A stretch of 38,720 bases of DNA from an uncultured Flavobacteriales bacterium (GTDB lineage: Bacteria > Bacteroidota > Bacteroidia > Flavobacteriales_D > Sanyastnellaceae). Location of the stretch: NCBI GenBank assembly GCA_943787435.1, contig CALSMK010000023.1, forward strand, positions 1-38,720. The letters run 5' to 3'. How positions within the stretch are numbered: the first letter of the stretch is position 1; every line of letters starts with the position of its first letter. Below are positions 7,426 through 33,985 of this stretch, one piece after another. The notes beneath the pieces are model-generated. The model made no database searches, was not told the origin of the DNA, and saw only the letters and a program-made list of their open reading frames with translations. The position numbers were made by a program, and so were the translations under genes.

Positions 7426-8525
7426 GATGCAGAAGAGTTGGGGCTCGAAGGAGTCACGGCTGGGCTGCCCTTGGCTTGAAAGCGCCGAGGAGCCTGGCCT
7501 TGGACGAGATTGGCTATGGCGCGGATGTGGTCTGGTGTGGTGCCACAGCATCCCCCAAGCACGTTCACCAACCCTTTGTCCAAGAAGGGTTGCAGTTGCT
7601 TGGCCATGTCTTCGGGACCTTGGTCGTATTCTCCCATTTCATTGGGGAGGCCAGCATTGGGGTGTGCTGAGATTCCGCAGTTTGAGACATTGGACAAGGC
7701 TTCCAAGTGGGGGATGAGTTGGGTGGCACCCAAAGCACAATTGAGCCCGATTGAAAACAGTGGGGCATGGCTCATGGACACCCAAAACGCTTCGGCGGTT
7801 TGTCCGCTGAGCGTGCGTCCAGAGGCGTCTGTGATGGTTCCGCTGACCATGATGGGCACGGGCTGCCCTGTGATGTCAAATGCCTCTTCCGCGGCAAACA
7901 AAGCTGCTTTGGCATTGAGGGTGTCAAAAACCGTTTCGATCAGGAGTGCATCCACCCCTCCCTGGATCAAGGCCACCATTTGCTGGGTATACGCTGTGAC
8001 GAGCTCTTGGAAAGTGACCGCCCGATAACCCGGGTCGTTGACATCGGGGCTGATGCTGGCTGTGCGGTTGGTGGGCCCCACTGACCCGGCAACAAACCGA
8101 GGTTTTTCTGGGTTAAGTGCCGTCCAGTGGTCTGCAGACTCTCGGGCAATTCGGGCAGAGGCGAAGTTTAAGTCTTCCACCGCGGACTCCAATCCGTAAT
8201 CGGCTTGGGCAATGGTGGTTGAGCTGAACGTGTTGGTTTCGGCAATGTCAGCTCCGGCTTCGAAGTAGGCGTCGTGAATGTCCCGGAGCACATCAGGGCG
8301 CGTGAGGGCCAGCAAGTCATTGTTGCCCTTGAGGGGGTGGGAGTGGTCCAAAAAACGTTCTCCTCGGAAGTCTGATTCCTGGAGTGAATGCCGTTGGATC
8401 ATGGTGCCCATGGCCCCGTCGAGGACGAGGATGCGGTCTTTGGCTGCGGAGGTGATGGATGCGCGCATGTGTTCAAATGCTCGGCGCAAAAGCGGGCTCA
8501 ATCCTTGCGGATTTCGCGGGCTCAT
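7422..8525 (-). CDS. metH: Methionine synthase, homocysteine-binding half
   Basis: Homocysteine S-methyltransferase barrel that binds and activates homocysteine through zinc and receives the methyl group from the cobalamin subunit encoded just downstream. Visible signatures are [13 protein letters not shown] at the N-terminus, [30 protein letters not shown], and the three zinc cysteines: one in GLNCALG and two in [13 protein letters not shown]. The C-terminus ends in a Pro/Ser-rich tail after the barrel. The start is uncertain. ATG codons at 8570, 8525 and 8468 are in frame, and the last gives a distance to LDGAMGT closest to family members; 8525 is a compromise giving 367 aa. It is the first gene of the metH-N/metH-C/metF group and is divergent from metK. 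Confidence 0.94.
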
Positions 8526-8628
8526 CTTTCCCCAGATTGAACTGGAGTCGGATTTGGCACCCGCCCTCATTACGCGGGTTGCCAAGACATCTTCGGGCCG
8601 ATCCCTCCGTCTTTCACGATAAGCGGAA

Positions 8629-8636
8629 CAAAGTTA
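8629..8636 (-). promoter_or_regulatory. Possible Bacteroidota -7 box upstream of the metH-metF group
   Basis: The minus strand reads TAACTTTG here, an exact match to the Bacteroidota -7 consensus TAnnTTTG, in the ~100-160-bp gap between the divergent metK and metH genes. A TTTG lies 14 bases upstream rather than the expected ~19-21, so the -33 half is not convincing. Transcription from it would give a leader of several tens of bases before metH-N. No SAM riboswitch fold was recognised in this gap. Confidence 0.3.
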
Positions 8637-8685
8637 GCATCTTCGCGTTCCAAACGGTCGCTTCAAAGACCCTTTAAAAGCCAAT

Positions 8686-9942
8686 ATGCCATACTTCTTT
8701 ACTTCCGAATCTGTCAGTGAAGGGCACCCCGATAAGGTGGCCGATCAGATTTCTGATGCGCTGATTGATCATTTTCTCGCTTTCGACGCCCAGTCCAAAG
8801 TGGCTTGTGAAACCTTGGTGACCACCGGTCAAGTGATTTTGGCTGGAGAGGTGAAAAGCGAGGCCTACATTGACGTACAACAGATTGCAAGGGACACCAT
8901 TGAGCGCATTGGCTACACCAAGAGTGAGTACATGTTTGATGCCGCCAGTTGTGGTGTTTTGAGTGCGATTCACGAGCAGAGCCCAGACATCAACCAAGGC
9001 GTTGAGCGCGCAGCTCCAGAAGAGCAGGGAGCGGGTGACCAAGGCATGATGTTTGGCTATGCTTGCCGCGAGACGGATGATTTTATGCCTTTGCCATTGG
9101 ATTTGAGTCACCGGTTGTTGCGTGTGCTGGCTGAATTGCGTCGGGAAGGCAATGAGATGGACTACTTGCGCCCAGACAGCAAAAGCCAAGTGACCATTGA
9201 GTACGACGACAACCATGCGCCAATGCGAGTAGAGGCTGTGGTTTTGTCGACCCAGCACGATGATTTTCACCCAGATGAAGACACCATGTTGGCCCGCATC
9301 AAGGCCGATGTGGCGAACATCCTCATCCCACGTGTTTTGGCCGAGTGCCCGGAGCGTGTGAAGTCGTTGTTTAAAGGTGACCACAAGCTCCACGTGAACC
9401 CCACAGGCAAGTTTGTCATTGGTGGCCCTCACGGAGACACGGGGTTGACTGGCCGCAAAATCATTGTGGATACATACGGAGGTCGCGGAGCCCACGGGGG
9501 TGGTGCATTCAGCGGTAAGGACCCTTCAAAAGTGGACCGCAGTGCGGCCTATGCGACCCGTCATGCTGCCAAGAATCTTGTGGCTGCGGGGGTGTGTGAC
9601 GAAGCGTTGGTTCAGGTGGCTTATGCCATTGGCGTTGCGGACCCTGTTGGGCTTTACGTCAACACATACGGCACGGGCAAGGTGGGGGTGAGCGATGGCG
9701 AAATCGCCCAAAGAATGGCCCACATTTTCCCCATGCGTCCTTTTGAGATCGAACAGCGGTTTGCCTTGCGCACACCCATTTACACTGAAACGGCGGCTTA
9801 CGGACACATGGGCCGAGCCACCGAGGTGGTGACCAAGACGTTTAAAGCAGCCACAGGCCAACTGGTTGAGCGCGAGGTGCGCTTGTTCCCTTGGGAGGCC
9901 CTGGACTGTGTTGAAGCTTTGAAGTCTGAGTTCGGCTGCTGA
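8686..9942 (+). CDS. metK: S-adenosylmethionine synthetase
   Basis: Makes S-adenosylmethionine from methionine and ATP in the cytoplasm. At 418 aa it has the family length for Bacteroidota. Signature motifs are [21 protein letters not shown] at the N-terminus with the catalytic His, [12 protein letters not shown] at residues 115-126, [14 protein letters not shown] and [12 protein letters not shown] in the central domain, and the P-loop-like [19 protein letters not shown]. The ATG at 8686 gives the standard [10 protein letters not shown] beginning. It is divergent from the metH-metF group, so SAM formation is encoded beside methionine regeneration. The gene converges on the NrtR-like regulator with only 30 bp between stops. 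Confidence 0.98.
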
Positions 9943-20569: not shown

Positions 20570-21427
20570 TCAGATTACCGCGGGCCCGGACCAGGTTTGC
20601 CAGTGGGAAGGACACCCAAAGAACAGGTCGGGTTTAACCTCCTCCCGAAAAAATCCATAAACAGCAGATCCGCTGCCACTCATTTCCGCGTAAACGGCAC
20701 CGGAGGCTTGCAGATGGTCCAGCGCATTTTGGATGTCTGGATGGTGGGCCTTGACGGGACCAGAGAAGTCGTTCTTCAGTTGACCGGACCAATCCAAGGG
20801 AGACGAGCCGGACCATTCATTCAGACCTGGACGATTGGATTGGGGAATGACCCATTGAAAGGCCTGTGCTGTGGGAACATGAATCCCGGGATGAATCATG
20901 GCGATGTGCCAGCCTTCAAGGTCCAAATCGATGGGCGAAATGTGCTCGCCACGTCCAGTGACCCTGGCGGGTTCATTGCGAATGAAGAACGGGCAATCCG
21001 AACCGAGTTGGGCGGCAAGGCCTTCCAACTCGACAAGAGAGAGCCCCAATTCAAAATGGGCATTGAGCAGCTTCAAGGCAAATGAACCATCGGCACTCCC
21101 GCCACCCAATCCAGCTCCGGATGGGATGGCTTTGATGAGGTGGAAATCGACCGGGGGCAAGTTCCTTTCTTTTTGGAGGAGAGCATGTGCGCGACAAACC
21201 AGGTTGTCCTTGGTGTTTCCTGCGACCTGATGTCCATGAAGGTGCAGTTTGACATGGGAGTCCGATGGGGCAGAGGCGGTCACCTCTAAGGTGTCGCACC
21301 AAGGCACAGGAATGAAGAGGCTGTCAATTTCGTGATAGCCATCTGGTCTCCTCTGGATCACATGAAGACCCAGATTGATTTTGGCATTTGGGAAGGCCAA
21401 ACGTGAAGCTGCAACTGAATCAGCCAT
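20570..21427 (-). CDS. ispE: 4-diphosphocytidyl-2-C-methyl-D-erythritol kinase
   Basis: Phosphorylates CDP-methylerythritol in the non-mevalonate isoprenoid pathway. It is a GHMP-kinase fold protein of 285 aa. It has the N-terminal PNAKINLGLHV with catalytic Lys16, DGYHEIDSLF, the ATP-binding glycine loop PSGAGLGGGSADGS at 102-115, catalytic Asp144 in LGSDCPFF, and a C-terminal MSGSGSAVYGFF. The ATG at 21427 overlaps the era stop by 8 bp, so the two genes are probably cotranscribed from upstream of era. Confidence 0.96.
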   Translation of the reverse strand: MADSVAASRLAFPNAKINLGLHVIQRRPDGYHEIDSLFIPVPWCDTLEVTASAPSDSHVKLHLHGHQVAGNTKDNLVCRAHALLQKERNLPPVDFHLIKAIPSGAGLGGGSADGSFALKLLNAHFELGLSLVELEGLAAQLGSDCPFFIRNEPARVTGRGEHISPIDLDLEGWHIAMIHPGIHVPTAQAFQWVIPQSNRPGLNEWSGSSPLDWSGQLKNDFSGPVKAHHPDIQNALDHLQASGAVYAEMSGSGSAVYGFFREEVKPDLFFGCPSHWQTWSGPAVI

Positions 21428-22340
21428 CGAAGTATCCGTACTGTTTCAGTTTGCGCTCGTCGTTCCTCCAATCCTTGTCCACTTTGATGCGGAGTTCCAG
21501 GAAGACTTTCTCTTTAAGGAAGTCTTCTAAGTCTTTTCGGGCATCAGTGGCCAAGCGCTTGATCATTTGTCCTCCGGTTCCGATTAAAATGGCCTTTTGG
21601 GAGTCTCGCGCCACTTGAATCACTGCGTGAATCCGCCGAAGGGGTTTCCCCTCTTTGGTTTGGTCCTTTTTGAAGGATTCTACAATGACCTCGCTGCTGT
21701 AGGGCACCTCCTGCCGAGTGTGGGTCAGGATTTTCTCCCGAATGATTTCCGCAACGAAGAACCGCATGGGCTTGTCGGTCATTTCGTCCTTTGGAAAAAA
21801 GGCAGGCGATTGGGGAAGGAGCTCAACAATGCGGTCGAGCAAGTGGTCTAGGTTGAACCCGTGGAGTGCACTGATGGGGTGGATTTCGGCGCGGGGAATG
21901 AGGTCTTGCCACAAGGAAATGTGATGGGTCACTTTCTCTTGGTCGCTCAAGTCAACCTTATTAATGAGCAAAAGGACGGGAATGTCCATTCGCTGAATTT
22001 TCTCAAGGGTTTCTGGATGGGCGAGGGTGGTTTCCTCGGGGGTGGTGACGATCAGAAGGACGTCTGCATCTCTTAACGCCGTGCGGACAAACTTCATCAT
22101 GCCCTCTTGGAGCTTGTAAGCTGGGTCGAGCACACCAGGAGTGTCTGAGTAAACGATTTGCCAATCGTCTCCAGACACAATGCCCATGATCCGGTGACGG
22201 GTCGTTTGTGCCTTGGCATTAATGATGCTGAGTCGTTCTCCGACGAGCTGATTCATCAAAGTGGATTTCCCCACATTGGGGGAACCTATGATGTTGACGA
22301 AGCCGGCTTTGTGCTCGGCGTTTGCATTCGTTGTGGACAC
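21420..22340 (-). CDS. era: Ribosome maturation GTPase Era
   Basis: GTPase that binds 16S rRNA and assists small-subunit assembly. The P-loop GSPNVGKST is at residues 19-27, TTRHRIMGI forms the switch region, DTPG precedes VLDPAYKLQ, and NKVD specifies guanine. The C-terminal KH type-2 domain has GTGGQMIKRLATDARKDLEDFL. No ATG lies at a suitable place. The GTG at 22340 gives MSTTNANAEHKAGFVNIIG and 306 aa, and a TTG at 22370 would add ten residues. The gene starts about 70 bp from the divergent tRNA-fMet and overlaps ispE downstream. Confidence 0.95.
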   Translation of the reverse strand: MSTTNANAEHKAGFVNIIGSPNVGKSTLMNQLVGERLSIINAKAQTTRHRIMGIVSGDDWQIVYSDTPGVLDPAYKLQEGMMKFVRTALRDADVLLIVTTPEETTLAHPETLEKIQRMDIPVLLLINKVDLSDQEKVTHHISLWQDLIPRAEIHPISALHGFNLDHLLDRIVELLPQSPAFFPKDEMTDKPMRFFVAEIIREKILTHTRQEVPYSSEVIVESFKKDQTKEGKPLRRIHAVIQVARDSQKAILIGTGGQMIKRLATDARKDLEDFLKEKVFLELRIKVDKDWRNDERKLKQYGYFDG

Positions 22341-22410
22341 GGATGTGGATTTGTGCTTGCAAAGAAACAAGACAGGACTATCTTCGCCGTCCCGATTCGG
22401 GAAAATGGAT

Positions 22411-22534: not shown

Positions 22535-22989
22535 GTTCTGAATCGTTGGGTTTGCCCTGAATTATCCACTTCTGGCTGAGGACAGTGTGGTCCTTGGTTG
22601 AGGTGGTGGTGAGGAAAGTCTTAAGCCTAACGTTCACAGCTGTTTACGTCCTGATTTAGGCCGGGGTAATGGGCTGAATCTAGCGATATAGTTTCGATGT
22701 CTTGTCGAGAGGGCTCTGGTTGAAAAGCAGTGATTTCAAGGAGAATTTGTAGACGTTTCCGCTATTTCGTAAGCGGAGATTATGAAATCTAATTGGTTTA
22801 AATCGCCTTTTGAGCTATGGATTACACTTATTGGCCGACGGCTTGATTTTCGAGATTTCCCGAGGCTCCCTCAATACCTTGTATAATTCGACGGATACGG
22901 GTAGGTGTTGATTGTGGTAACGGCAAGAATTGTGAACTTGGACGGACCTGTTTAACGACAGGAAAAACCAAGGAACCAAAACACTTGTG
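22535..22989. other. Gene-free 455-bp stretch upstream of the giant gene
   Basis: No convincing gene is seen here; a 69-codon frame on the minus strand (22815-23024) runs into the giant gene and looks spurious. The stretch is visibly richer in A/T than its neighbours. It holds a small hairpin (TCCGCT at 22758-22763 with AGCGGA at 22772-22777) and a TATAAT at 22882-22887, about 100 bp before the giant gene. I cannot place a convincing -33 TTTG at the right spacing. It probably contains the promoter and 5' leader of the giant gene. Confidence 0.5.
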
Positions 22990-23754
22990 ATGCGTCTCAC
23001 GTCTCTATTACTCGCCCTGTGCATTTGCTGGGCCCCCTCTTTCGCCCAAATTCAACAGATTGCAGTGACATCTGCTCCTGCACCTGAAGGGTATGATCTC
23101 GAAACCGAAGTAGTTGCCGAGAACATCGGCTTACTTGTAGGAGCCCTCGGTGCTGTTGACCTCACAGGTTACAACACGACCCGGGTCTACATTACTATGG
23201 TGAACGCAGATGACTTTTTGTCCTCTGTTTCCGGTGATGCCTTGAATCCAACGTTGGTCAACACCACAACCAACTTCTACCACGCTCTGTTAGGAGCTGG
23301 AACACCAAACGGCATCAACAGCGTGCTCTTCCCGGTATACCCGGATTTGGCTTACGACAGTTGGGTGACCATTGGCTTGGAGGGTACTCCTAATGCTGGC
23401 GCTGGTGAAGCCAACGTGAGCACGGTTCAATCCAATGACAACCCTTGGTTGACCAATTTCGATCCAGGAGCGGGCCAGCCTGGTGGCAACATTGCCATTG
23501 ATGATGGCATTGGTGGAGCATGGTACGCCCTGAACGGAGACGCCAACGGTGTAGCCGGAGACGACCTCAAAGTGTTGGCCGGTCAATTCACCACCACTGG
23601 TGAGCTCAGCGGTCAGATGTACATCCAGGCGTTCATCAATGGAGACGGACAGGCTGAATTCAGAGACACCTTCTATTTTGGAGCAGGTGCACCGGTTTTG
23701 GGTTGTACTGACTCTGCTGCCTGCAACTATGACTGCGGCAGCAACAGAGGATGA
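22990..23754 (+). CDS. N-terminal fragment of giant T9SS-exported protein (frameshifted)
   Basis: 254-aa reading frame with a Sec signal peptide (MRLTSLLLALCICWAPSFAQ). A domain of about 200 residues follows (YNTTRVYITMVNADDFLSS, YPDLAYDSWVTIGLEG, GGAWYALNGDANG, DDLKVLAGQFTTTGELSGQ). That domain reappears later in the same gene at about 30340-30925. The frame ends in GCTDSAACNYD followed by six out-of-pattern residues and a TGA at 23752. Removing one base near 23734 converts this end into CNYDAAATEDDSSC, exactly the repeat unit seen repeatedly downstream, and joins it to the frame reaching 32275. It is therefore the 5' part of a broken or mis-sequenced gene, not a complete protein. A GTG at 22987 just before the ATG is also in frame. 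Confidence 0.9.
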   Translation: MRLTSLLLALCICWAPSFAQIQQIAVTSAPAPEGYDLETEVVAENIGLLVGALGAVDLTGYNTTRVYITMVNADDFLSSVSGDALNPTLVNTTTNFYHALLGAGTPNGINSVLFPVYPDLAYDSWVTIGLEGTPNAGAGEANVSTVQSNDNPWLTNFDPGAGQPGGNIAIDDGIGGAWYALNGDANGVAGDDLKVLAGQFTTTGELSGQMYIQAFINGDGQAEFRDTFYFGAGAPVLGCTDSAACNYDCGSNRG

Positions 23755-26700
23755 TTCCTCATGTACTTATCCGGCAGACAGCTGTGATGGTGCTACCAAC
23801 GTGGATTGCGACTGTTCCTGCATCAATGACGCAGACGCCGATGGCATCTGCTCTGAGGATGACCTCTGTGAGGATCTGACGGCTTGCAACTACGATGATG
23901 CCGGCAACGAAGCTTGTGCCTACCTCGATGAGTGTGGCATTTGTGGCGGTGGCGGAATCGCTGATGGAGCGTGCGACTGTGATGGAAATGTCCTCGACGA
24001 GTGCGGCGTATGTGGTGGTTCAGGCATTGCTGATGGTGAATGCGACTGCGACGGAAACGTGCTGGATGCCTTGGGTGTTTGTGGGGGCGACTGCGCTGCC
24101 GACTCCGACGGTGACGCCATCTGTGACGACGCTGACAACTGCACGGATACCAGCGCTTGTAACTACAATGATGCTGGCAATGAGGCCTGCGCCTACCTCG
24201 ACGAATGTGGGGTGTGTGGCGGATCAGGTATCCCTGACGGAGAATGTGACTGTGACGGAAACGTCAACGACATCTGCGGTCTTTGCGGTGGTTCCAGCAC
24301 GGACGTAGATGGCGACGGTTTGGGTGAGCCTTGTGATGACAACTGTACTGACACCAATGCCTGTAACTACGCTGACGCAGCGAATGAGGCATGTGAGTAC
24401 GAGACATGTTCCGGTTGTGGTTTGACCGACGCTTGTAACTATAACGCTGAGGCCACGATCGTGGACAACTCCAGCTGCTTGTATCCAGAGGATCTTTACA
24501 CCTTGCCTTGTTCAGGTGTGGCCTTGGATTGCGATGGTGCTTGTGTCAATGATTCCGACGGTGACGATGTCTGTGATGAGTGTGAAATCCCCGGTTGTAC
24601 CGAGGAAGCAGCTTGTAACTACTCATCTGCAGCTACGGACGAAGACGGCTCATGCCAATACCCCATTGACCTTTACGGCATCGACTACGTTGACTGTGAT
24701 GGTGAATGTCTCAGCGACGCCGACGGAGATGGCGTCTGTAACGAAGATGAGACAGAGAGCTGCACAGATGCGGCTGCATGTAACTATGATGACAACCCCT
24801 TTGCCGACTCAGACAACACACTGTGTGTCTATCCGATTGACACCTATGGTGTCGACAACGTGGACTGCGATGGTGTTTGTTTGAATGACGTCGATGGCGA
24901 CGGTGTATGTGACGAGGACGAGATTCCTGGATGTACAGACGAGGGTGCCAACAACTATAGCTCTGCAGCCACCGATGACGATGGCAGCTGCACAGGTTGC
25001 ACCAACTCGATTGCAGACAACTACTATGCCGGAGCGGACATCGATGATGGAACCTGCGTCATTTCTGGTTGCACAGAAGCGGAGGCCTGTAACTACTTCG
25101 AGCCAGCCAACAACAACGATGGTTCTTGTGATTACCCCATTGACTTGTACGGAGCGAGCAACGTCGACTGTGACGGAGTGTGCTTGAACGACAGCGACGG
25201 TGACGGAACTTGTGACGAGGACGAGGATCTCGATGAGGTCTTGGACATCATCAATGACGCTTCAGGCGCCAACTTGGATTCTACCATCTCCATCATTGAG
25301 GACTTGGTTCTCACAGGTGGAGGCGGTTCAAGCAACTTTGCAGACGCCTTTGATGGTCTCGGCATTGGTTTTGTTCCTGGAATTGGAGGTCAAATGACCG
25401 GAATGGTGGCCACGTTGGACGTGAGCTGCAGTGGCGTGGAAGATGTGACGTCTGTTCGCATCAGCGGTCCTTGGTGGGGCTGGGATCCCAATGGAGGTCC
25501 AGAAGCGACCGAAGTTTCAGAAGGCATTTGGCAGGTTGTGTTTGATCCAGCCCCTGGAGCCGACATGGAATACAAGTGGGTCATCAACGGCGAGTATGAG
25601 GACCTCCTCGACTTCGGTGCTGACCTTCTTTATGATGATGGATATGACGATTACCTGAACGGTGCGTGTGCTCCACTCACGGACTACTTCAGCTACGCCA
25701 ACCGCCAGTGGGTGATGGGTTCAGGTGACATCAACGACACATGGGGACAGTGCACAGCTTGCACCCAAGTGGCCAACTGTGGAACCTTGTTCATGCCAAC
25801 AGACGGCGCATGGGAAACGGCAGGTTACAACCTCGAAGCATTGAGCCAAGAAGTGATCGGTGACTTGCTCGCTGGACACGTATTCCTCGGCTTCTGCGAT
25901 GAGATGCAGAACGGTGACCAAGTCACCAACTGGTACGGAGAGATTTTCCAGTTCAACGATGATGGTGCCGGCAACCGCAACATCCAGTCTTTGATCAGTG
26001 GTGATGTATACTCAGTAGAGGACGGTGCTTACAGCTTTGACAGCGGAAGTAAAGTCTACACCTTGGGAGATGTGATTGCATTGGCCAGTGCTGACCCATG
26101 CTTGGGTTGCACAGAACTGGAAATGACAGGAAGCATCGCTGACTACTCAGTGGAGTGTGAGTCTGAGCTTGATGCTGCTATGGCCGCTTCAGATGTTGCT
26201 GCCTTCGCCTGCTCCGAGCTTGAGCTCGATGCAGTCTACAGCACCAAGCTGCAATTCGATGGCCGCAACCAAATTCAAAACGGTGGTGGAACGAGCCAAA
26301 CTTGGAACGTTCTGTCTGCCGGCGATGATGCCAACTTCAACAACGGAACGGATGCTTTGCTCCAGTTCTATGACATCGACGGAGACATGGGCCAGGCGGT
26401 CTACTTCGTGGAAGATGTTGCTGCTGGTGGTGTGACCATGACCCAATATGAAAATGGTACAGCCCTCCTCGAAGGTTCAGTTGTAGACATGGACGATGCC
26501 AACCGTGGGTTGGACATCCACTTCTACTTTGACAACCGCACTGCTGGAAACGCGTGGGGTGGAGGCTTCAAAAACGACTACGGTTGTGCTGTGAACACCG
26601 ATGATTGGACCATGTATGTCCTGAACGACGACATGAGCTATGCTACTGGTCGCGGAGACTGGCAGTTCGGAACGCTGTTGCGTTTCAACCACCAGCCGTC

Positions 26701-29700
26701 TAGCCAATACTTCGGATACCAGTTGGGCGATGGTGCCAACAACCACAACTGTGATGCCAACGGATTCTCCGGGTGGTTCAGCTGGAGTGGAGCCATCGCA
26801 GGTGAGCCTGCCTTTGGACAAGCTGGTGACATCATCTCTACGCTTGATCCAACCGTAGGTTATGCCACGGATTGTCAGGACGGAGAGTTTGCGGAGTTCC
26901 ACTACGTTGCGTTCGATGAGCTCTGCAACATTGCTCAGCTCAACATCCAGACGGTTGACCGCGACGATGCCACTGCTCCTACTTACGTTTCTGGAGGAGC
27001 TGACATCACCCTTGACTGCGGAATCAGCGATCAGTGGTTGCTTGACAACCTCGCTGCAGATGAAATCGTCTTGTTCAGTGACAACTGCGACGACAGCGAG
27101 TATGGATGTGCAGCTGGGTTTGACCCCAACACCTCCGGTTTCGCTGATGGCAATACTGTCTACGTTTGTGTTGAGCTCGTGGGTGAAACCACGGCCAGCT
27201 ACACGGCCAGCAGCTGCCGCATATTGAACCGCACATGGGTGGCCACAGATTGCTTCGGCAACCAGTCCTACCATGTTCAGGTGATCACGATTGAGGACAC
27301 CACCTTGCCTGAGGTTTCCGTGACTGCACCAGCAGACATCACCCTCAATGTAAACGGACTGTGCTACGTTGATTTGGATCCTTCCAATACGGGAGAAGGC
27401 TCACCTTCATACAGCGACAACTGTGACTTGGCCGATACAGGCATGGATTACAGCGATGAGGTTGTGGACAGCGTGAGCACCGGTTGCTACAGCATCATCC
27501 GCACATGGACGGTTGCAGCAACGGACAGCTGTGGAAATGCCAACGCGACTTCAGACACACAGCGCATCGACATTCAGGATCAGATTGCCCCAAGCTTCCT
27601 TTACAACCAAGTTGACACCATTGAGTGTGACCTTTGGGTGGCAGGTGCTTGTGACTACGATTACTTGAACAGCATCGGTTTGGCTACGGCCTCTGACAAC
27701 TGCGAGTTGGATTACGTTGACGTGGCTTGCACGCCGCTCTCTAGCGCTTGTACCGATGATTACATCATTGACTACACCGCCTATGACAAGTGTGGAAACA
27801 GCACATCCATCCAACAGATTGTGGTGACGGCTGACCGCACTGCTCCTGAGTTCACGTTTGCACCTGCTGATTTGACTTTGGAGTGCAGCGATGCTTCACT
27901 CACTGGAGATGTTGATGGGTACGCCGTTCCGGTCTATACACCTGGTGACGGACTCCACGCTGAGGCCATGGACAACTGCGATGCTGAAATCACAGTGACC
28001 TACGCCGATGTCATCCTGACAACAGCATGCGCTCAGGAGTATCTGATTCGCCGTACATACAGCGTGTATGACTGCGATGAGAACCTTGGCCAGCACGTTC
28101 AGGAGATCACCATCGATGACTCGACAGCTCCAGAGTTCACCTCGTTCCCCGCTGATGTGGTGGACGTGGAGTGTGACGCTGTTCCCGCTGTAGCTTCAAT
28201 CGGTAGCTTGGGTGTCAGCGACAACTGCGACGGCGCTCCGAGTACCTCCTACGATGGAGAGGTTCGCACCGACGGTGATTGCCCAGACAGCTACACGCTC
28301 GAGCGCACATGGACCTCGGTCGACTGCGCTGGCAACAGCCACACCCAGACCCAGACCATCACGGTCTTGGACACGCAAGCTCCTGAAATGAGCATGTCTT
28401 GCCCGGCTGAATTCGAACACCCCAACGAGTGCTTCCTCGGTGGCGCTGATGGAGACGAGTCCTCTGAGGCCAGCATCCAAATGTCCACGGACATCAATGG
28501 TGAGCCTACCTGGACGGTGAGCGACAACTGCGATGCCGATGTTGAGGTGAGCTACACCTACACGGATGTCATTGTAGAAACGGATGGTGAATTCCGCATC
28601 ACACGGTCGTTCACAGTGACGGCTACGGACAACTGTGGCAACGCGACCACACAGGAATGTGACCAACTCATCACCTTCACGGACCTTGCTGGTCCTCTCA
28701 TGTCGGACGACCCGGCTGAGCTGTATCCTGCGTCCATTGCTTGTTCCGATATGGGAGATCCTTATGACGTGACCTTCATGCCGGTCAGCGCAACGGACGG
28801 TTGTGTGAGCAATTTGACCTATGAAGTTGTCGACGCATACCTCACGTCAGGTTCCTGCCCAGGTACTTGGGTCCGCCACTGGGTGGCCTACGACGAGTCC
28901 GGCAACGTGTCCGCTCAAGAAGCCATTCAATACATCCCGACATTCGATATCGTGGCGCCTGAGGTGAGCCTTGAAGCTCCAGGTTCTGATGGTGGTGATG
29001 GCGGTCCCACGACCACCACTGTCTACCTCGATGACAACTGCTATGTGGACTTGAGTCCTGAAGCCATTGGTTACGGCAGTTTGGAGTATTCCGATGATTG
29101 TGATCCCAACCCGAATACTGACCTCTCATATGTGGACGGTCCTCAAGACTTCGCTTGCAGTGGTAACGTTGGAACATACACGTTCACCCGTACCTGGACA
29201 GCTGTTGTGACCGACTTGTGTGGAAACTCCAGCTCGGCTACCGGTGATCAGGTGATCACGGTGATTGACAACAGCGCTCCAGAGCTGACGCTCGATTGTC
29301 CCAATGGAGCGAACCTCGTTAACACTTGCTTCTCAAGTGTGGACACGAGCCTGGCCTCCCTGGGCGAGGTTGAGTGGATTGCCACAGACAACTGTGACGA
29401 TGACCTCGATGTGAGCTACACCTACAGCGATGAGATTGAGTTTGACTGCAGCATGGTCGGTGTGGACGCTAACCCAGAGGGTAGCTACAACTTCGTCAGG
29501 ACCTTTACGGTCACAGCGACGGATTGCAATGGCAACTCTACTACAGAGGTCTGCACCCAGACAATCAATACGTTTGACATCTCAGCACCGACCATCGCCC
29601 TGACCTGCCCGGACACGGCCACGGTTCAGTTGGACGAGACGTGTTCAACCGATGTTGACCCATCCATCACTGGAAATGCGGTCGCCATTGGAACAGACGA

Positions 29701-32275
29701 TTGTGACACGGAAGTGACCATCACCTATAGCTATACCGATGGCGCTCCAACATACCTGTGTGGTACGAGCGGTTACGAATTCATCCGTACTTGGACGGCG
29801 ACGGCCAAAGACGATTGTGGAAACACCTCAAGTGAGAGCTGTGACCAAGTGATCGTGGTTGAAGACAACATCGCACCTGTGGCCAGCATCGAATGCCCCG
29901 CTGACCAGACGGTATCCTTGGATGCCAACTGTGAAGCTGACTTGAGCACGGACGCTCTGGGAATGGCCACCGGTTCAGGCACAGACAACTGCGATTTGAA
30001 TGTGACCATTGAAATCAGCTACACGGATGGTGCTCCATCATACACCTGCACGGGTGACGATGATCAGCTCGACGGTTCTTACACCTTCGTGCGTACGTTC
30101 ACGTCCCTCGCTACAGATGATTGTGGAAACACCCACAGTGTGACGTGTGACCAGAACATCACGGTGAATGACAACACTGCACCCATGCAGGACTTCCCAT
30201 TCCTGCCAACGGACACGGTTTACCTTGACCTGGATTGCAATGCTGACCTCACGCCTAGCGTATTGCCCATCACAACGGCAATGGACAACTGCGACAGCGA
30301 TGTGGCCATTGAGGTGACCTACGAGGATGACCCAGCCAACTTCGACGACATCTTTGGTGCAACGAATGTGGACATCGATACGGTGGCCATCCACACCACG
30401 GGTGAGCTTGCCGGAATGAGCACTTACCGCATCTACGCGGTGCTTCCTCAGGAGGGTGACTTCTTGAGCTCCATCAGTGGAGAAGGCGCATTCAGCACCC
30501 AGATCCGAACCAGCACAAGTTTCTTCCAGCATGAGTTTGGCTCACATACTGAGGCAGGTCAGAATGGGATCTTGGTTGCAGCTTATCCGGAGTTGGCCTA
30601 CGACAGCTACATCACCATCGGACTGGATAGCATTGCGGACGAAAACGCTGGAGAAGTCGGAACTGCTGCGGTTCAAACTCCGAGTGACCTCTGGTATTCT
30701 CGTTTCGAAGAAGGAGAGGACGTGTTGATCAGCAGCCTCTTTGGAGGAGCTTATTATGCGCTCAACGGAGCCACCAACGGATATGCTGACGAAGACGGAA
30801 AAGTCTTGGTTGCTCAGGTTACCACAGACGGTGTGCTGAACGGTCAGATTTTCGCTCAAATCTTCCCACAGGGAGATGGCAGCCAGCAGCAGCTCCGCAC
30901 GATCACATTCGGCGACGGCTGTGCCGGAGACGACGACAACATCGAGGGTAGCTATGTCTTCCCACGTGTTTGGACTTCAACGGTGACCGACGACTGTGGC
31001 AACCAAGATGTGGTCAACACTTACCAGTACGTGGTGGTGCTCGATACCATCGCTCCTCAGTTCACCAATACGTGTGACATTGAGAACGGAGAGACTGTTG
31101 AGTACACCTGCGGTGACGACAACGGAAACGGAGTCAACGACATCTTGGACTTCACCGAAACCCCTGCCGCTTGTGCTCCGAGTTACATCGAGAACTGCGA
31201 CAGTGAGGTGGCCTTGACGATGACATCCGACACCATGGGATATGTCCCAACGGGAGACATCGCCAACTACTGTATGCCAAGCAACGTTGAAGCCATTGCA
31301 AATGGTGAGACTTGTGACGACCGCGATCCAGAAGCGATTCGCTTGTTCAACTTCTCAGGAGGTGAGTCTTACACCCTCGTTGACGGTGGAAGCAGCTTGA
31401 TTGAGATCATGCAGGACAGCTCCATGCACATTGTGATGGAGGTTGAGAATGCAGCGGGCGATGCCGGCTTCATCTTCGACGCCATCTATGAAGGTGGACA
31501 TGACTGGAACGAGTGGCTCGCCCTCCCAGGCATGCACAACTACAAGAAGGACTGTGCTGAGATCTTCCCAGGCATCGAAATCTGGACCGAGTGGATCTAC
31601 TACATCATGGACGGTGGTACCATGAGTGGTACTGGTCGCTATGCTGGATCTGAGTTCTCATTGGCTCACCAGCCATTGAATGCCTACTACGGCATGCAAG
31701 TGGGTGAGGGTGCCAACAACAAGAACGAGAACTACGGTGCAAGCGCTTGGTTCTTCTGGACTGGTGAGTACATCCTTGATGGAGCCAGCCAAGGCACGAT
31801 GGCCTCCAGTGGAGACATCTTTATGGACCTTGACTGCTGCCTCGGTTGGCAGATCGACTACGACTACACCGTCGTGGACGATTGCAACAACAGCAACGGA
31901 TTCAGCTACACCGATCTTGGATTGGGTGAGTTCGGCAACAGCGCGAACAGCACTGTCAGCGGTGGCCACTCTCCAGTGGACATCACAGCCGGTACAACGA
32001 GCCTGAAGGATCCAATCCGCATCACTGGACTTTCACCTAACCCAACCAGTGACATCTCTACCCTTGGGTTTGTGGTCTCCAACAACATGCGCTTGCGCAT
32101 TGACCTCTACACCATGGGTGGTGGTTACGTGGGTGAGTTGTTCGATGGAAACGCCACTGAAGACGTTCAGTACATGCTCGACATTGACGCCAGTTCAATG
32201 GCCAGCGGCATGTACCAGATCCGGATGTCAAGCAACGATTACGTGCTTGTCAAGAAGCTGCTCGTGAGCGAGTAA
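23600..32275 (+). CDS. Giant multidomain surface/secreted protein with T9SS type A sorting domain (main part)
   Basis: Open frame of 2,891 codons. Its true reading starts only near 23735, because the first ~45 codons are the upstream domain read out of frame, and it has no signal peptide of its own. Joined to the 22990 fragment it gives about 3,094 aa. Order in joined numbering: Cys/Asp-rich CNY and calcium-loop repeats (~240-750); an E-set/carbohydrate-binding-like domain (~797-915); a FAS1-like domain with LFMPTDGAWETAGYNLEAL (~920-1040); an aromatic Gly-rich domain (~1077-1291); eleven of twelve HYR-like repeats (~1320-2440); a second copy of the N-terminal domain (~2450-2645); the twelfth HYR-like unit; a second copy of the aromatic domain (~2754-2971); and a T9SS type A sorting domain (~3007-3094; LSPNPTSD, LDIDASSMASGMYQIRM, VKKLLVSE). 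Secretion through the T9SS to the cell surface or medium, with a role in adhesion, is inferred. Confidence 0.9.
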   Translation: MSSAVRCTSRRSSMETDRLNSETPSILEQVHRFWVVLTLLPATMTAAATEDDSSCTYPADSCDGATNVDCDCSCINDADADGICSEDDLCEDLTACNYDDAGNEACAYLDECGICGGGGIADGACDCDGNVLDECGVCGGSGIADGECDCDGNVLDALGVCGGDCAADSDGDAICDDADNCTDTSACNYNDAGNEACAYLDECGVCGGSGIPDGECDCDGNVNDICGLCGGSSTDVDGDGLGEPCDDNCTDTNACNYADAANEACEYETCSGCGLTDACNYNAEATIVDNSSCLYPEDLYTLPCSGVALDCDGACVNDSDGDDVCDECEIPGCTEEAACNYSSAATDEDGSCQYPIDLYGIDYVDCDGECLSDADGDGVCNEDETESCTDAAACNYDDNPFADSDNTLCVYPIDTYGVDNVDCDGVCLNDVDGDGVCDEDEIPGCTDEGANNYSSAATDDDGSCTGCTNSIADNYYAGADIDDGTCVISGCTEAEACNYFEPANNNDGSCDYPIDLYGASNVDCDGVCLNDSDGDGTCDEDEDLDEVLDIINDASGANLDSTISIIEDLVLTGGGGSSNFADAFDGLGIGFVPGIGGQMTGMVATLDVSCSGVEDVTSVRISGPWWGWDPNGGPEATEVSEGIWQVVFDPAPGADMEYKWVINGEYEDLLDFGADLLYDDGYDDYLNGACAPLTDYFSYANRQWVMGSGDINDTWGQCTACTQVANCGTLFMPTDGAWETAGYNLEALSQEVIGDLLAGHVFLGFCDEMQNGDQVTNWYGEIFQFNDDGAGNRNIQSLISGDVYSVEDGAYSFDSGSKVYTLGDVIALASADPCLGCTELEMTGSIADYSVECESELDAAMAASDVAAFACSELELDAVYSTKLQFDGRNQIQNGGGTSQTWNVLSAGDDANFNNGTDALLQFYDIDGDMGQAVYFVEDVAAGGVTMTQYENGTALLEGSVVDMDDANRGLDIHFYFDNRTAGNAWGGGFKNDYGCAVNTDDWTMYVLNDDMSYATGRGDWQFGTLLRFNHQPSSQYFGYQLGDGANNHNCDANGFSGWFSWSGAIAGEPAFGQAGDIISTLDPTVGYATDCQDGEFAEFHYVAFDELCNIAQLNIQTVDRDDATAPTYVSGGADITLDCGISDQWLLDNLAADEIVLFSDNCDDSEYGCAAGFDPNTSGFADGNTVYVCVELVGETTASYTASSCRILNRTWVATDCFGNQSYHVQVITIEDTTLPEVSVTAPADITLNVNGLCYVDLDPSNTGEGSPSYSDNCDLADTGMDYSDEVVDSVSTGCYSIIRTWTVAATDSCGNANATSDTQRIDIQDQIAPSFLYNQVDTIECDLWVAGACDYDYLNSIGLATASDNCELDYVDVACTPLSSACTDDYIIDYTAYDKCGNSTSIQQIVVTADRTAPEFTFAPADLTLECSDASLTGDVDGYAVPVYTPGDGLHAEAMDNCDAEITVTYADVILTTACAQEYLIRRTYSVYDCDENLGQHVQEITIDDSTAPEFTSFPADVVDVECDAVPAVASIGSLGVSDNCDGAPSTSYDGEVRTDGDCPDSYTLERTWTSVDCAGNSHTQTQTITVLDTQAPEMSMSCPAEFEHPNECFLGGADGDESSEASIQMSTDINGEPTWTVSDNCDADVEVSYTYTDVIVETDGEFRITRSFTVTATDNCGNATTQECDQLITFTDLAGPLMSDDPAELYPASIACSDMGDPYDVTFMPVSATDGCVSNLTYEVVDAYLTSGSCPGTWVRHWVAYDESGNVSAQEAIQYIPTFDIVAPEVSLEAPGSDGGDGGPTTTTVYLDDNCYVDLSPEAIGYGSLEYSDDCDPNPNTDLSYVDGPQDFACSGNVGTYTFTRTWTAVVTDLCGNSSSATGDQVITVIDNSAPELTLDCPNGANLVNTCFSSVDTSLASLGEVEWIATDNCDDDLDVSYTYSDEIEFDCSMVGVDANPEGSYNFVRTFTVTATDCNGNSTTEVCTQTINTFDISAPTIALTCPDTATVQLDETCSTDVDPSITGNAVAIGTDDCDTEVTITYSYTDGAPTYLCGTSGYEFIRTWTATAKDDCGNTSSESCDQVIVVEDNIAPVASIECPADQTVSLDANCEADLSTDALGMATGSGTDNCDLNVTIEISYTDGAPSYTCTGDDDQLDGSYTFVRTFTSLATDDCGNTHSVTCDQNITVNDNTAPMQDFPFLPTDTVYLDLDCNADLTPSVLPITTAMDNCDSDVAIEVTYEDDPANFDDIFGATNVDIDTVAIHTTGELAGMSTYRIYAVLPQEGDFLSSISGEGAFSTQIRTSTSFFQHEFGSHTEAGQNGILVAAYPELAYDSYITIGLDSIADENAGEVGTAAVQTPSDLWYSRFEEGEDVLISSLFGGAYYALNGATNGYADEDGKVLVAQVTTDGVLNGQIFAQIFPQGDGSQQQLRTITFGDGCAGDDDNIEGSYVFPRVWTSTVTDDCGNQDVVNTYQYVVVLDTIAPQFTNTCDIENGETVEYTCGDDNGNGVNDILDFTETPAACAPSYIENCDSEVALTMTSDTMGYVPTGDIANYCMPSNVEAIANGETCDDRDPEAIRLFNFSGGESYTLVDGGSSLIEIMQDSSMHIVMEVENAAGDAGFIFDAIYEGGHDWNEWLALPGMHNYKKDCAEIFPGIEIWTEWIYYIMDGGTMSGTGRYAGSEFSLAHQPLNAYYGMQVGEGANNKNENYGASAWFFWTGEYILDGASQGTMASSGDIFMDLDCCLGWQIDYDYTVVDDCNNSNGFSYTDLGLGEFGNSANSTVSGGHSPVDITAGTTSLKDPIRITGLSPNPTSDISTLGFVVSNNMRLRIDLYTMGGGYVGELFDGNATEDVQYMLDIDASSMASGMYQIRMSSNDYVLVKKLLVSE
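23701..25240 (+). repeat. Cys/Asp-rich repeat array: GCTDxxACNY, DECGVCGG and calcium-loop units
   Basis: Protein-level degenerate repeats cover this stretch. Units of the type (G)CTDxxACNYxxxATxDDGSC occur about nine times. DECGxCGGxGIxDGxCDCDGN units occur about three times between 23928 and 24275. Thrombospondin-3-like acidic loops such as NDSDGDDVCDECE, SDADGDGVCNEDE and NDVDGDGVCDEDE occur about seven times. Their Asp spacing suggests calcium binding, and the paired Cys suggest disulfides outside the cell. Confidence 0.85.
26950..31075 (+). repeat. Array of about twelve HYR-like (Ig-fold) repeats, interrupted once
   Basis: Units of about 90 residues share the pattern DNCD...(Y)...RTWTATDxCGNxxxxxQxIxVxDxxAPE. 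I count twelve endings of the form D-x-x-AP or its variants; the last unit (30945-31075) is separated from the others by the duplicated N-terminal-type domain at 30340-30925. HYR-like domains are extracellular Ig-like modules used in adhesion. Nucleotide identity between units is low, so the array is old or under diversifying drift. Confidence 0.8.
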
Positions 32276-32525: not shown

Positions 32526-32545
32526 TTTGGGGTAAGTTGCCGGCC

Positions 32546-33985
32546 ATGACCAGCCCCTCACAATTGACGTCAAATGGAGCCTCAGGCGAGGAAAGAAAGG
32601 TGTTCCCCTTGAGTGGGATCACCCGCTCTGTTGGCAAAATGTTGGACGAGCGAACGGGCGGCAAACTGTTTTGGGTCCGGGCCGAAATCAGCCAGTGTAG
32701 TTTTTCGGGGAAACACGCTTATCTGGACCTGGTGGAAGAACAGGATGGTTCGAGACTGGCCCAAGTTCGAGGCACCATTTGGGGCAGTCGATTGAATCAA
32801 ATTCGCGAAGCTTTGGGTGCGGAGTTCAAGGAGGTGCTTCAGCCAGGCCGTGAAATCGTATTCAGCGCTTACATGGCCTTTCACGCTGTCTATGGTTTCT
32901 CATTGAACATTCAAGGCATCGATCTCGATGCTTTGCTCGGGGAGATGGAGCGAAGGCGCAAAGAGACTTTGGCTGCATTGACCCGAGAAGGTGCGATCGG
33001 GAGAAACGCGAAGCTGACCTTGGCGAAGGTGCCTCAGAAGCTCGTGTTAATTGGCTCCAGCGGAACAGCAGGGCACACAGACTTCATGACCCACCTGCGT
33101 CGCAACGCTTGGGGGTATCAAGTGGACTTGGGGTGCATCGATGTTGCTGTTCAAGGGGCGACGGCCATTCCTTCTTTGGTCGCAGCCTTGCACCAAGCCG
33201 GCAGGGCAGCATTGCGCACTCCTGTCGATGCGGTCGTGCTGGTGAGGGGAGGTGGAGCCAAGCTCGATTTGGACATCTTCAATGACCTCACTTTGTGCCG
33301 CGCATTGGCTGCCATGGCCGTGCCGGTCATCACGGGAATTGGTCACGAAACCGATCAGAGTTTGGCAGACGTCGTGTCCCACACGTCGTGCAAAACGCCA
33401 ACTGCTGTGGCTGATTTCTTTTTGGACCGAATGGCGGAGTTTGAATCTTCGGTGGGTCGGGAAGGAAGAGCGATTGCGGCAGAGAGCAGGGCACAGTTGT
33501 CGGAAGAGTCAGGTTGGGTTCAGGGTTGTCAAGCACTGTTGTCTGAGCGCCCCCTGTCACACATTCGAAGGCAGAGGGCTGAGCTTCACAACGGAGCCAA
33601 TGCCGTGGTTCGTAGAACCCGATCTGCATTGGGAGATCGCAAGGCGAAATTGATGTCCATCCAGACGGCCATGGCCGTAGGGTCAAACCAGTTGCCTGCT
33701 TCATGGAAGCAAGTCCTTGGAGAGCTTGAAATGGGGATTCAGAGAGAAGCTTCTCGTCAGTTGCTCCAGCAAGAGGAGCGAATCAAGCACATGAAAAGCA
33801 CCTTGGCCTTGTTGGGACCTGGCGCAACCCTGAAGCGGGGTTTTTCCATCACGCGCAAGAACGACAAGGCGGTTCGAGATGTGCATGAGTTGGAGACAGG
33901 TGACGTGATTGAAACCCAGCTTGAATCCGGTACTTTCACTTCAGAAGTCCGTGAGATTTCTTTGAAGAAGAAAGGAGACACTTGA
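32546..33985 (+). CDS. xseA: Exodeoxyribonuclease VII large subunit
   Basis: Catalytic subunit of exonuclease VII, which degrades single-stranded DNA to oligonucleotides. The N-terminal OB-fold (about 15-125, with WVRAEISQCSFSGKHAYLDL) is followed by the catalytic domain with KLVLIGSSGTAGHTDFM, VVLVRGGGAKLDLDIFND and the strongly conserved PVITGIGHETDQSLADVV and TPTAVADFF. A long coiled-coil-like region follows and the C-terminus contains GATLKRGFSI. The ATG at 32546 gives 479 aa; a TTG three codons earlier is less likely. xseB begins 10 bp after the stop, so both subunits come from one operon. Confidence 0.95.
   Translation: MTSPSQLTSNGASGEERKVFPLSGITRSVGKMLDERTGGKLFWVRAEISQCSFSGKHAYLDLVEEQDGSRLAQVRGTIWGSRLNQIREALGAEFKEVLQPGREIVFSAYMAFHAVYGFSLNIQGIDLDALLGEMERRRKETLAALTREGAIGRNAKLTLAKVPQKLVLIGSSGTAGHTDFMTHLRRNAWGYQVDLGCIDVAVQGATAIPSLVAALHQAGRAALRTPVDAVVLVRGGGAKLDLDIFNDLTLCRALAAMAVPVITGIGHETDQSLADVVSHTSCKTPTAVADFFLDRMAEFESSVGREGRAIAAESRAQLSEESGWVQGCQALLSERPLSHIRRQRAELHNGANAVVRRTRSALGDRKAKLMSIQTAMAVGSNQLPASWKQVLGELEMGIQREASRQLLQQEERIKHMKSTLALLGPGATLKRGFSITRKNDKAVRDVHELETGDVIETQLESGTFTSEVREISLKKKGDT

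Follow-up and report, generated by a model that had tools for sequence, protein, structure and literature searches.

A gene of a marine bacterium for a giant T9SS cargo protein, which is divided between two reading frames in the window (the whole stretch of 38,720 nucleotides that was analysed), is a single gene in related genomes. The break is private to the assembly that contains the window, and similar breaks occur in essential genes of the same assembly. On the basis of sequence comparison, we consider it very probable that the break is an assembly or sequencing indel, and most likely no real biological feature. The living organism would then have one intact gene of ~9.3 kb for a giant surface protein secreted by the T9SS. 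From the N-terminus onwards, this protein would consist of a signal peptide, a beta-rich module, cysteine-rich repeats, an HYR-like region, the module once more and the sorting domain. The break at about 23733-23738 would come from one base falsely inserted in a metagenome assembly that is prone to insertions. This assembly (G000) is a MAG of 2.12 Mb in 34 contigs, with a completeness of 78.5%.

Organization of the cargo gene

Frame 1 is open from an ATG at 22990 to the stop codon at 23752-23754 and encodes 254 amino acids (the ORF is listed from a GTG at 22987). Frame 2 stays open between 23555 and the stop codon at 32273-32275, and its first start codon, at 23600, gives 2,891 codons. They share an overlap of 200 nt, and the shift between them is +1. 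When joined, they cover 22990-32275, that is, 9,286 bp, which agrees with the ~9.3 kb proposed in the initial annotation of this DNA. The features of the gene and of its neighbours are as follows.

22990-23754, forward strand: frame-1 piece of the cargo gene (N-terminal fragment), 254 aa, cut short by the frame break (ORF and ortholog identity)
22990-23046, forward strand: putative Sec signal peptide of 19 residues (by eye: short basic start, hydrophobic core, SFA followed by Q)
23065-23691, forward strand: beta-rich module of ~200 aa without a Pfam family (no Pfam match; AlphaFold2 mean pLDDT 93)
23730-23740, forward strand: junction, where frame 1 passes into frame 2 and one private extra base is present that the orthologs lack (ortholog ORFs and DNA alignment)
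23600-32275, forward strand: remaining part of the cargo gene, read in frame 2 and open from 23555 (ORF; third-codon-position changes dominate in comparison with four orthologs)
23704-25270, forward strand, approximate limits: cysteine-rich GCT..ACNYD..DDGSC repeats (read from translations)
28166-28366, forward strand: best HYR-like (PF23237) stretch (23.4 bits, under the curated cut-off of 27)
30365-30922, forward strand: another copy of the N-terminal module, read in frame 2 (identity of 40%)
32036-32266, forward strand: T9SS type A C-terminal sorting domain (PF18962; 33.1 bits, cut-off 27)
21420-22370, reverse strand: Era-like GTPase (GTPase and KH domains), upstream neighbour and synteny anchor (domain and ortholog searches)
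32537-33985, forward strand: exonuclease VII large subunit (xseA), downstream neighbour and synteny anchor (domain and ortholog searches)

With a C-terminal sorting domain above its cut-off, a signal-like N-terminal start and a large repeat-rich body, the protein resembles T9SS type A cargo (PF18962/TIGR04183). It differs from such cargo in its module of ~200 aa, for which Pfam has no family and which occurs both at the N-terminus and near the C-terminus. It should be noted that the sorting domain fell just under both cut-offs when scored within the long protein (26.4 versus 27 for PF18962 and 19.2 versus 23 for TIGR04183). In the window as assembled, the signal-like start (by eye) and the sorting domain lie in different frames, and no signal peptide is visible by eye at the start of frame 2. 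Both ends lie in one frame in relatives: the single-frame proteins of G001 and G011 have a signal-like start (by eye) together with PF18962 above the cut-off. In addition, frame 2 holds a copy of the module found in the N-terminal fragment, a hint at sequence level that the two pieces may belong together as one gene.

Comparison with orthologs in the genus

A protein search with the N-terminal fragment gave matches in all 17 genomes of the genus, G000 included, and a close era match was present in 13 of the 16 relatives. Synteny was fixed by Era upstream and XseA downstream. The contig reached the junction in 10 relatives (G001, G004, G006, G007, G008, G010, G011, G013, G014 and G015), and it stopped before the junction, judged from coordinates, in G002, G009 and G016. 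The collections searched contained no second assembly of the species of G000. The frame-1 fragment was 79-81% identical to the ortholog starts in G001, G006, G007, G008, G011 and G015, 74% in G010 and 66% in G014. Full single frames had 3153 aa in G001, 3087 aa in G011 and 2818 aa in G008.

Each of the 10 era-adjacent orthologs covering the junction had one reading frame running unbroken across it, so that none of them shared the break. When ORFs of six relatives were aligned to the window, the frame switch was placed at about 23733-23738. A single ORF matched frame 1 until 23730-23733 and frame 2 from 23732-23750 in five of the six (G001, G006, G011, G013 and G015); in the sixth (G008), only the frame-2 stretch passed the filter. 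When the first 780 nt were aligned at the DNA level with the 10 orthologs, exactly one indel was private to the window, a one-base insertion within 23701-23760. These results confirm the initial proposal of one gene in two frames with a switch near 23734.

The codon pattern was normal on both sides of the junction. Differences from G001 at codon positions 1, 2 and 3 numbered 42, 31 and 132 in the first piece and 374, 301 and 1122 in the second, and changes at the third position also dominated in the frame-2 piece against four orthologs. Neither a second break nor a loss of codon pattern was found in the 8.5 kb after the junction. Viral contigs contained no relative of the N-terminal fragment, and plasmid records had no DNA match to 23000-24000.

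Breaks at other sites of the gene were observed in two orthologs: a private one-base insertion near codon 48 in G013 (contig C4, L110) and a private one-base deletion near codon 195 in G004 (contig C119, L115). Thus, with the window counted, the gene is broken within its first 780 nt, at differing sites, in 3 of 11 assemblies. The breaks in G013 and G004 could be real or errors. Some real breakage of the cargo gene is conceivable, since break rates on the sampled contigs of both genomes were low (see below).

Among the paralogs in G000 itself, one on contig C20 (L119; module match at 8273-8985) had several one- and two-base indels within ~150 bp, and may be either a pseudogene or an error-dense stretch. 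Another, on contig C11, is open for 3044 aa.

Frame breaks across the assembly

We surveyed the density of frame breaks in contigs of G000 chosen for convenience (917,339 of the 2,120,000 bases), using ORFs from parts of the G008 and G001 genomes as references; the listing of broken genes was based on 897,339 bases. With one reference set, 27 events were observed in 129,516 bp (19 of 93 genes), or 2.08 per 10 kb, and with the other, 10 events in 70,398 bp (9 of 48 genes), or 1.42 per 10 kb. Control values with the same reference sets were between 0 and 0.6 per 10 kb: 0.35 in G001 (3 of 60 genes), 0.61 in G008 (5 of 55), 0.30 and 0.00 in G013 (1 of 20 and 0 of 28) and 0.00 and 0.44 in G004 (0 of 30 and 2 of 26). 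The reverse controls (0.28 per 10 kb for G000 against G008 and 0.11 for G000 against G001) were not counted in this range, as they are biased low because the ORFs used were already cut by breaks. Some of the events stem from over-long reference ORFs, and others in any of the genomes, including G000, may do so. If false breaks number one to two per 10 kb, about one to two are expected in a gene of 9.3 kb.

Essential genes, which a living cell needs intact, were among those broken in G000. Breaks were observed in rpoC, atpA, prfB, lpxC-fabZ, gpmI and cysD. The strongest case was rpoC, which lay in seven pieces with changing frame along one contig (C21, 64981-69253; L237, L241 and L243). Matches to rpoC were obtained in 13 genomes: 10 others had it in one piece (in G003 and G004 a partial gene), and in two it was split between contigs. 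We aligned the DNA of G000 rpoC with that of eight of nine relatives; L234 (G005) was set aside, as the filter did not accept its start, and the partial copies in G003, G004 and G009 were left out. G000 had eight private one-base insertions and no deletion, and each of the eight relatives had none of either. All eight insertions fell within the last 36% of the gene. The extra bases were taken as false, since a cell with such an rpoC could hardly live.

The same type of indel was prevalent in pairwise DNA counts for G000. One-base insertions were the commonest small indel, accounting for 40 of 69 and 10 of 12 with the two references (controls, 5 of 19 and 1 of 13), and only 9 of the 69 and 1 of the 12 small indels touched a homopolymer of at least four bases. 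The break at the junction, a one-base insertion, is of this commonest kind. The density of small indels depended on the reference: with G008 it was clearly higher in G000 (7.07 per 10 kb), and with G001 it was hardly above the controls (2.5 versus 2.5 and 1.93). As pairwise indel counts contain alignment noise, our argument rests on the make-up of the indels and not on their density.

The errors were clustered. The window contig was cleaner than C11 and C21, and the junction was the only clear break among the comparable genes of the window; two further events flagged on this contig were judged to be artefacts of over-long reference ORFs. On C11, breaks affected atpA and three neighbouring ORFs near the end of the contig (about 1000-3600), which a poorly covered contig end would explain.

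Origin of the extra base

In the initial annotation, programmed frameshifting had been ranked below two other causes, an assembly error and a real mutation that disables the gene. The comparison with relatives, which the annotation had suggested, yielded no ortholog with the same two-frame arrangement (0 of 10). Of the two causes, an assembly error is now favoured, because frame breaks occur across G000, including an rpoC in seven pieces. The extra base is probably absent from the DNA of the cell, and G000 was probably derived from noisy or low-coverage long reads. Dominance of one-base insertions with few at homopolymers is a pattern that we take to be typical of older PacBio reads.

A real and recent one-base insertion could instead have inactivated the gene in the sampled population, so that the 254-aa fragment with its signal peptide would be made and the remainder with the sorting domain would fail to be translated or to be secreted. 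Cargo genes are numerous in G000 (44 sorting-domain matches, 32 of them above the cut-off) and presumably dispensable, 2 of the 10 orthologs are broken elsewhere in this gene, and few other breaks were found on the window contig. Against these points stand the breaks of rpoC, atpA and prfB in the same assembly, that of rpoC being caused by the same class of indel, and the 8.5 kb after the junction that have neither a second break nor a loss of codon pattern. We regard such a mutation as unlikely; it retains some weight because the errors of G000 are clustered and the window contig is cleaner than average. A broader version, in which the insertion is real and the gene for the giant surface protein is often switched off in natural populations by scattered one-base indels, so that cells vary in the large T9SS surface proteins they display, appears more doubtful still. 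In the open-licence literature, we found no paper combining T9SS with phase variation and frameshift.

A programmed +1 ribosomal frameshift that joins both frames in every cell would suit the overlap of 200 nt and the direction of the shift, but none of the 10 orthologs shares the two-frame arrangement, and the breaks in G013 and G004, being at other places, give it no support. Moreover, inspection of the junction by eye showed no base repeated three or more times in succession, in line with the earlier remark that the site has no homopolymer or slippery heptamer, and we rejected this reading as extremely improbable. We also rejected, as hardly credible, a reading in which a gene for a small secreted protein is followed by a separate gene for a sorting-domain protein. 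The start codon at 23600 would suit it, but the single ORF of relatives maps to both pieces and no signal peptide can be seen by eye in the second frame.

The preferred reading, a false insertion, has parallels in published work. According to Cooley and Wright (2024, PMC11017572), many apparent pseudogenes stem from assembly errors, and their number flags poor assemblies. A study of nanopore MAGs from dog faeces (PMC8103633) reports indels as the commonest type of nanopore error, and frameshift correction mattered more in low-coverage contigs. G000 resembles such error-prone assemblies in that small indels split genes, the count of broken genes flags the whole assembly and low coverage would worsen the problem, whereas its errors differ in being mostly one-base insertions outside homopolymers. 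Our search of the open-licence literature returned no paper matching PacBio insertion errors or marine T9SS MAGs.

As a piece of biology, the break at the junction would matter little. Because even rpoC is broken, a comparison with relatives should precede any interpretation of gene calls in G000, those of apparent pseudogenes and split genes among them.

A family of giant surface proteins with a beta-rich module

Judged from the orthologs, the cargo protein belongs to a family of giant surface proteins of the T9SS, whose beta-rich module matches no Pfam entry. Pfam gave no family for the 254-aa fragment at E 0.001 or for 23065-23691 at E 1, and NCBIfam had none for the ~200-aa module. An AlphaFold2 model of the module reached a mean pLDDT of 93 with a more diverse alignment (55.5 with the first alignment). 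A fold search of the PDB with this model gave no match at E≤0.001 (best E 0.016, TM-scores 0.29/0.36), and when the first alignment was used as a profile against solved structures, no hit had E≤1. No paper linking T9SS with HYR was found in the open-licence literature.

The fragment holding the module was matched in every one of the 17 genomes of the genus, in 19 of the 20 further genomes of the family and in 2 of the 23 from the remainder of the order, which makes 38 of 60 in total. Within G000 alone, it had 34 matches. At E≤0.001, G000 had 44 matches to the T9SS sorting domain (32 above the cut-off), and its secreted repertoire is large for a 2.12-Mb genome.
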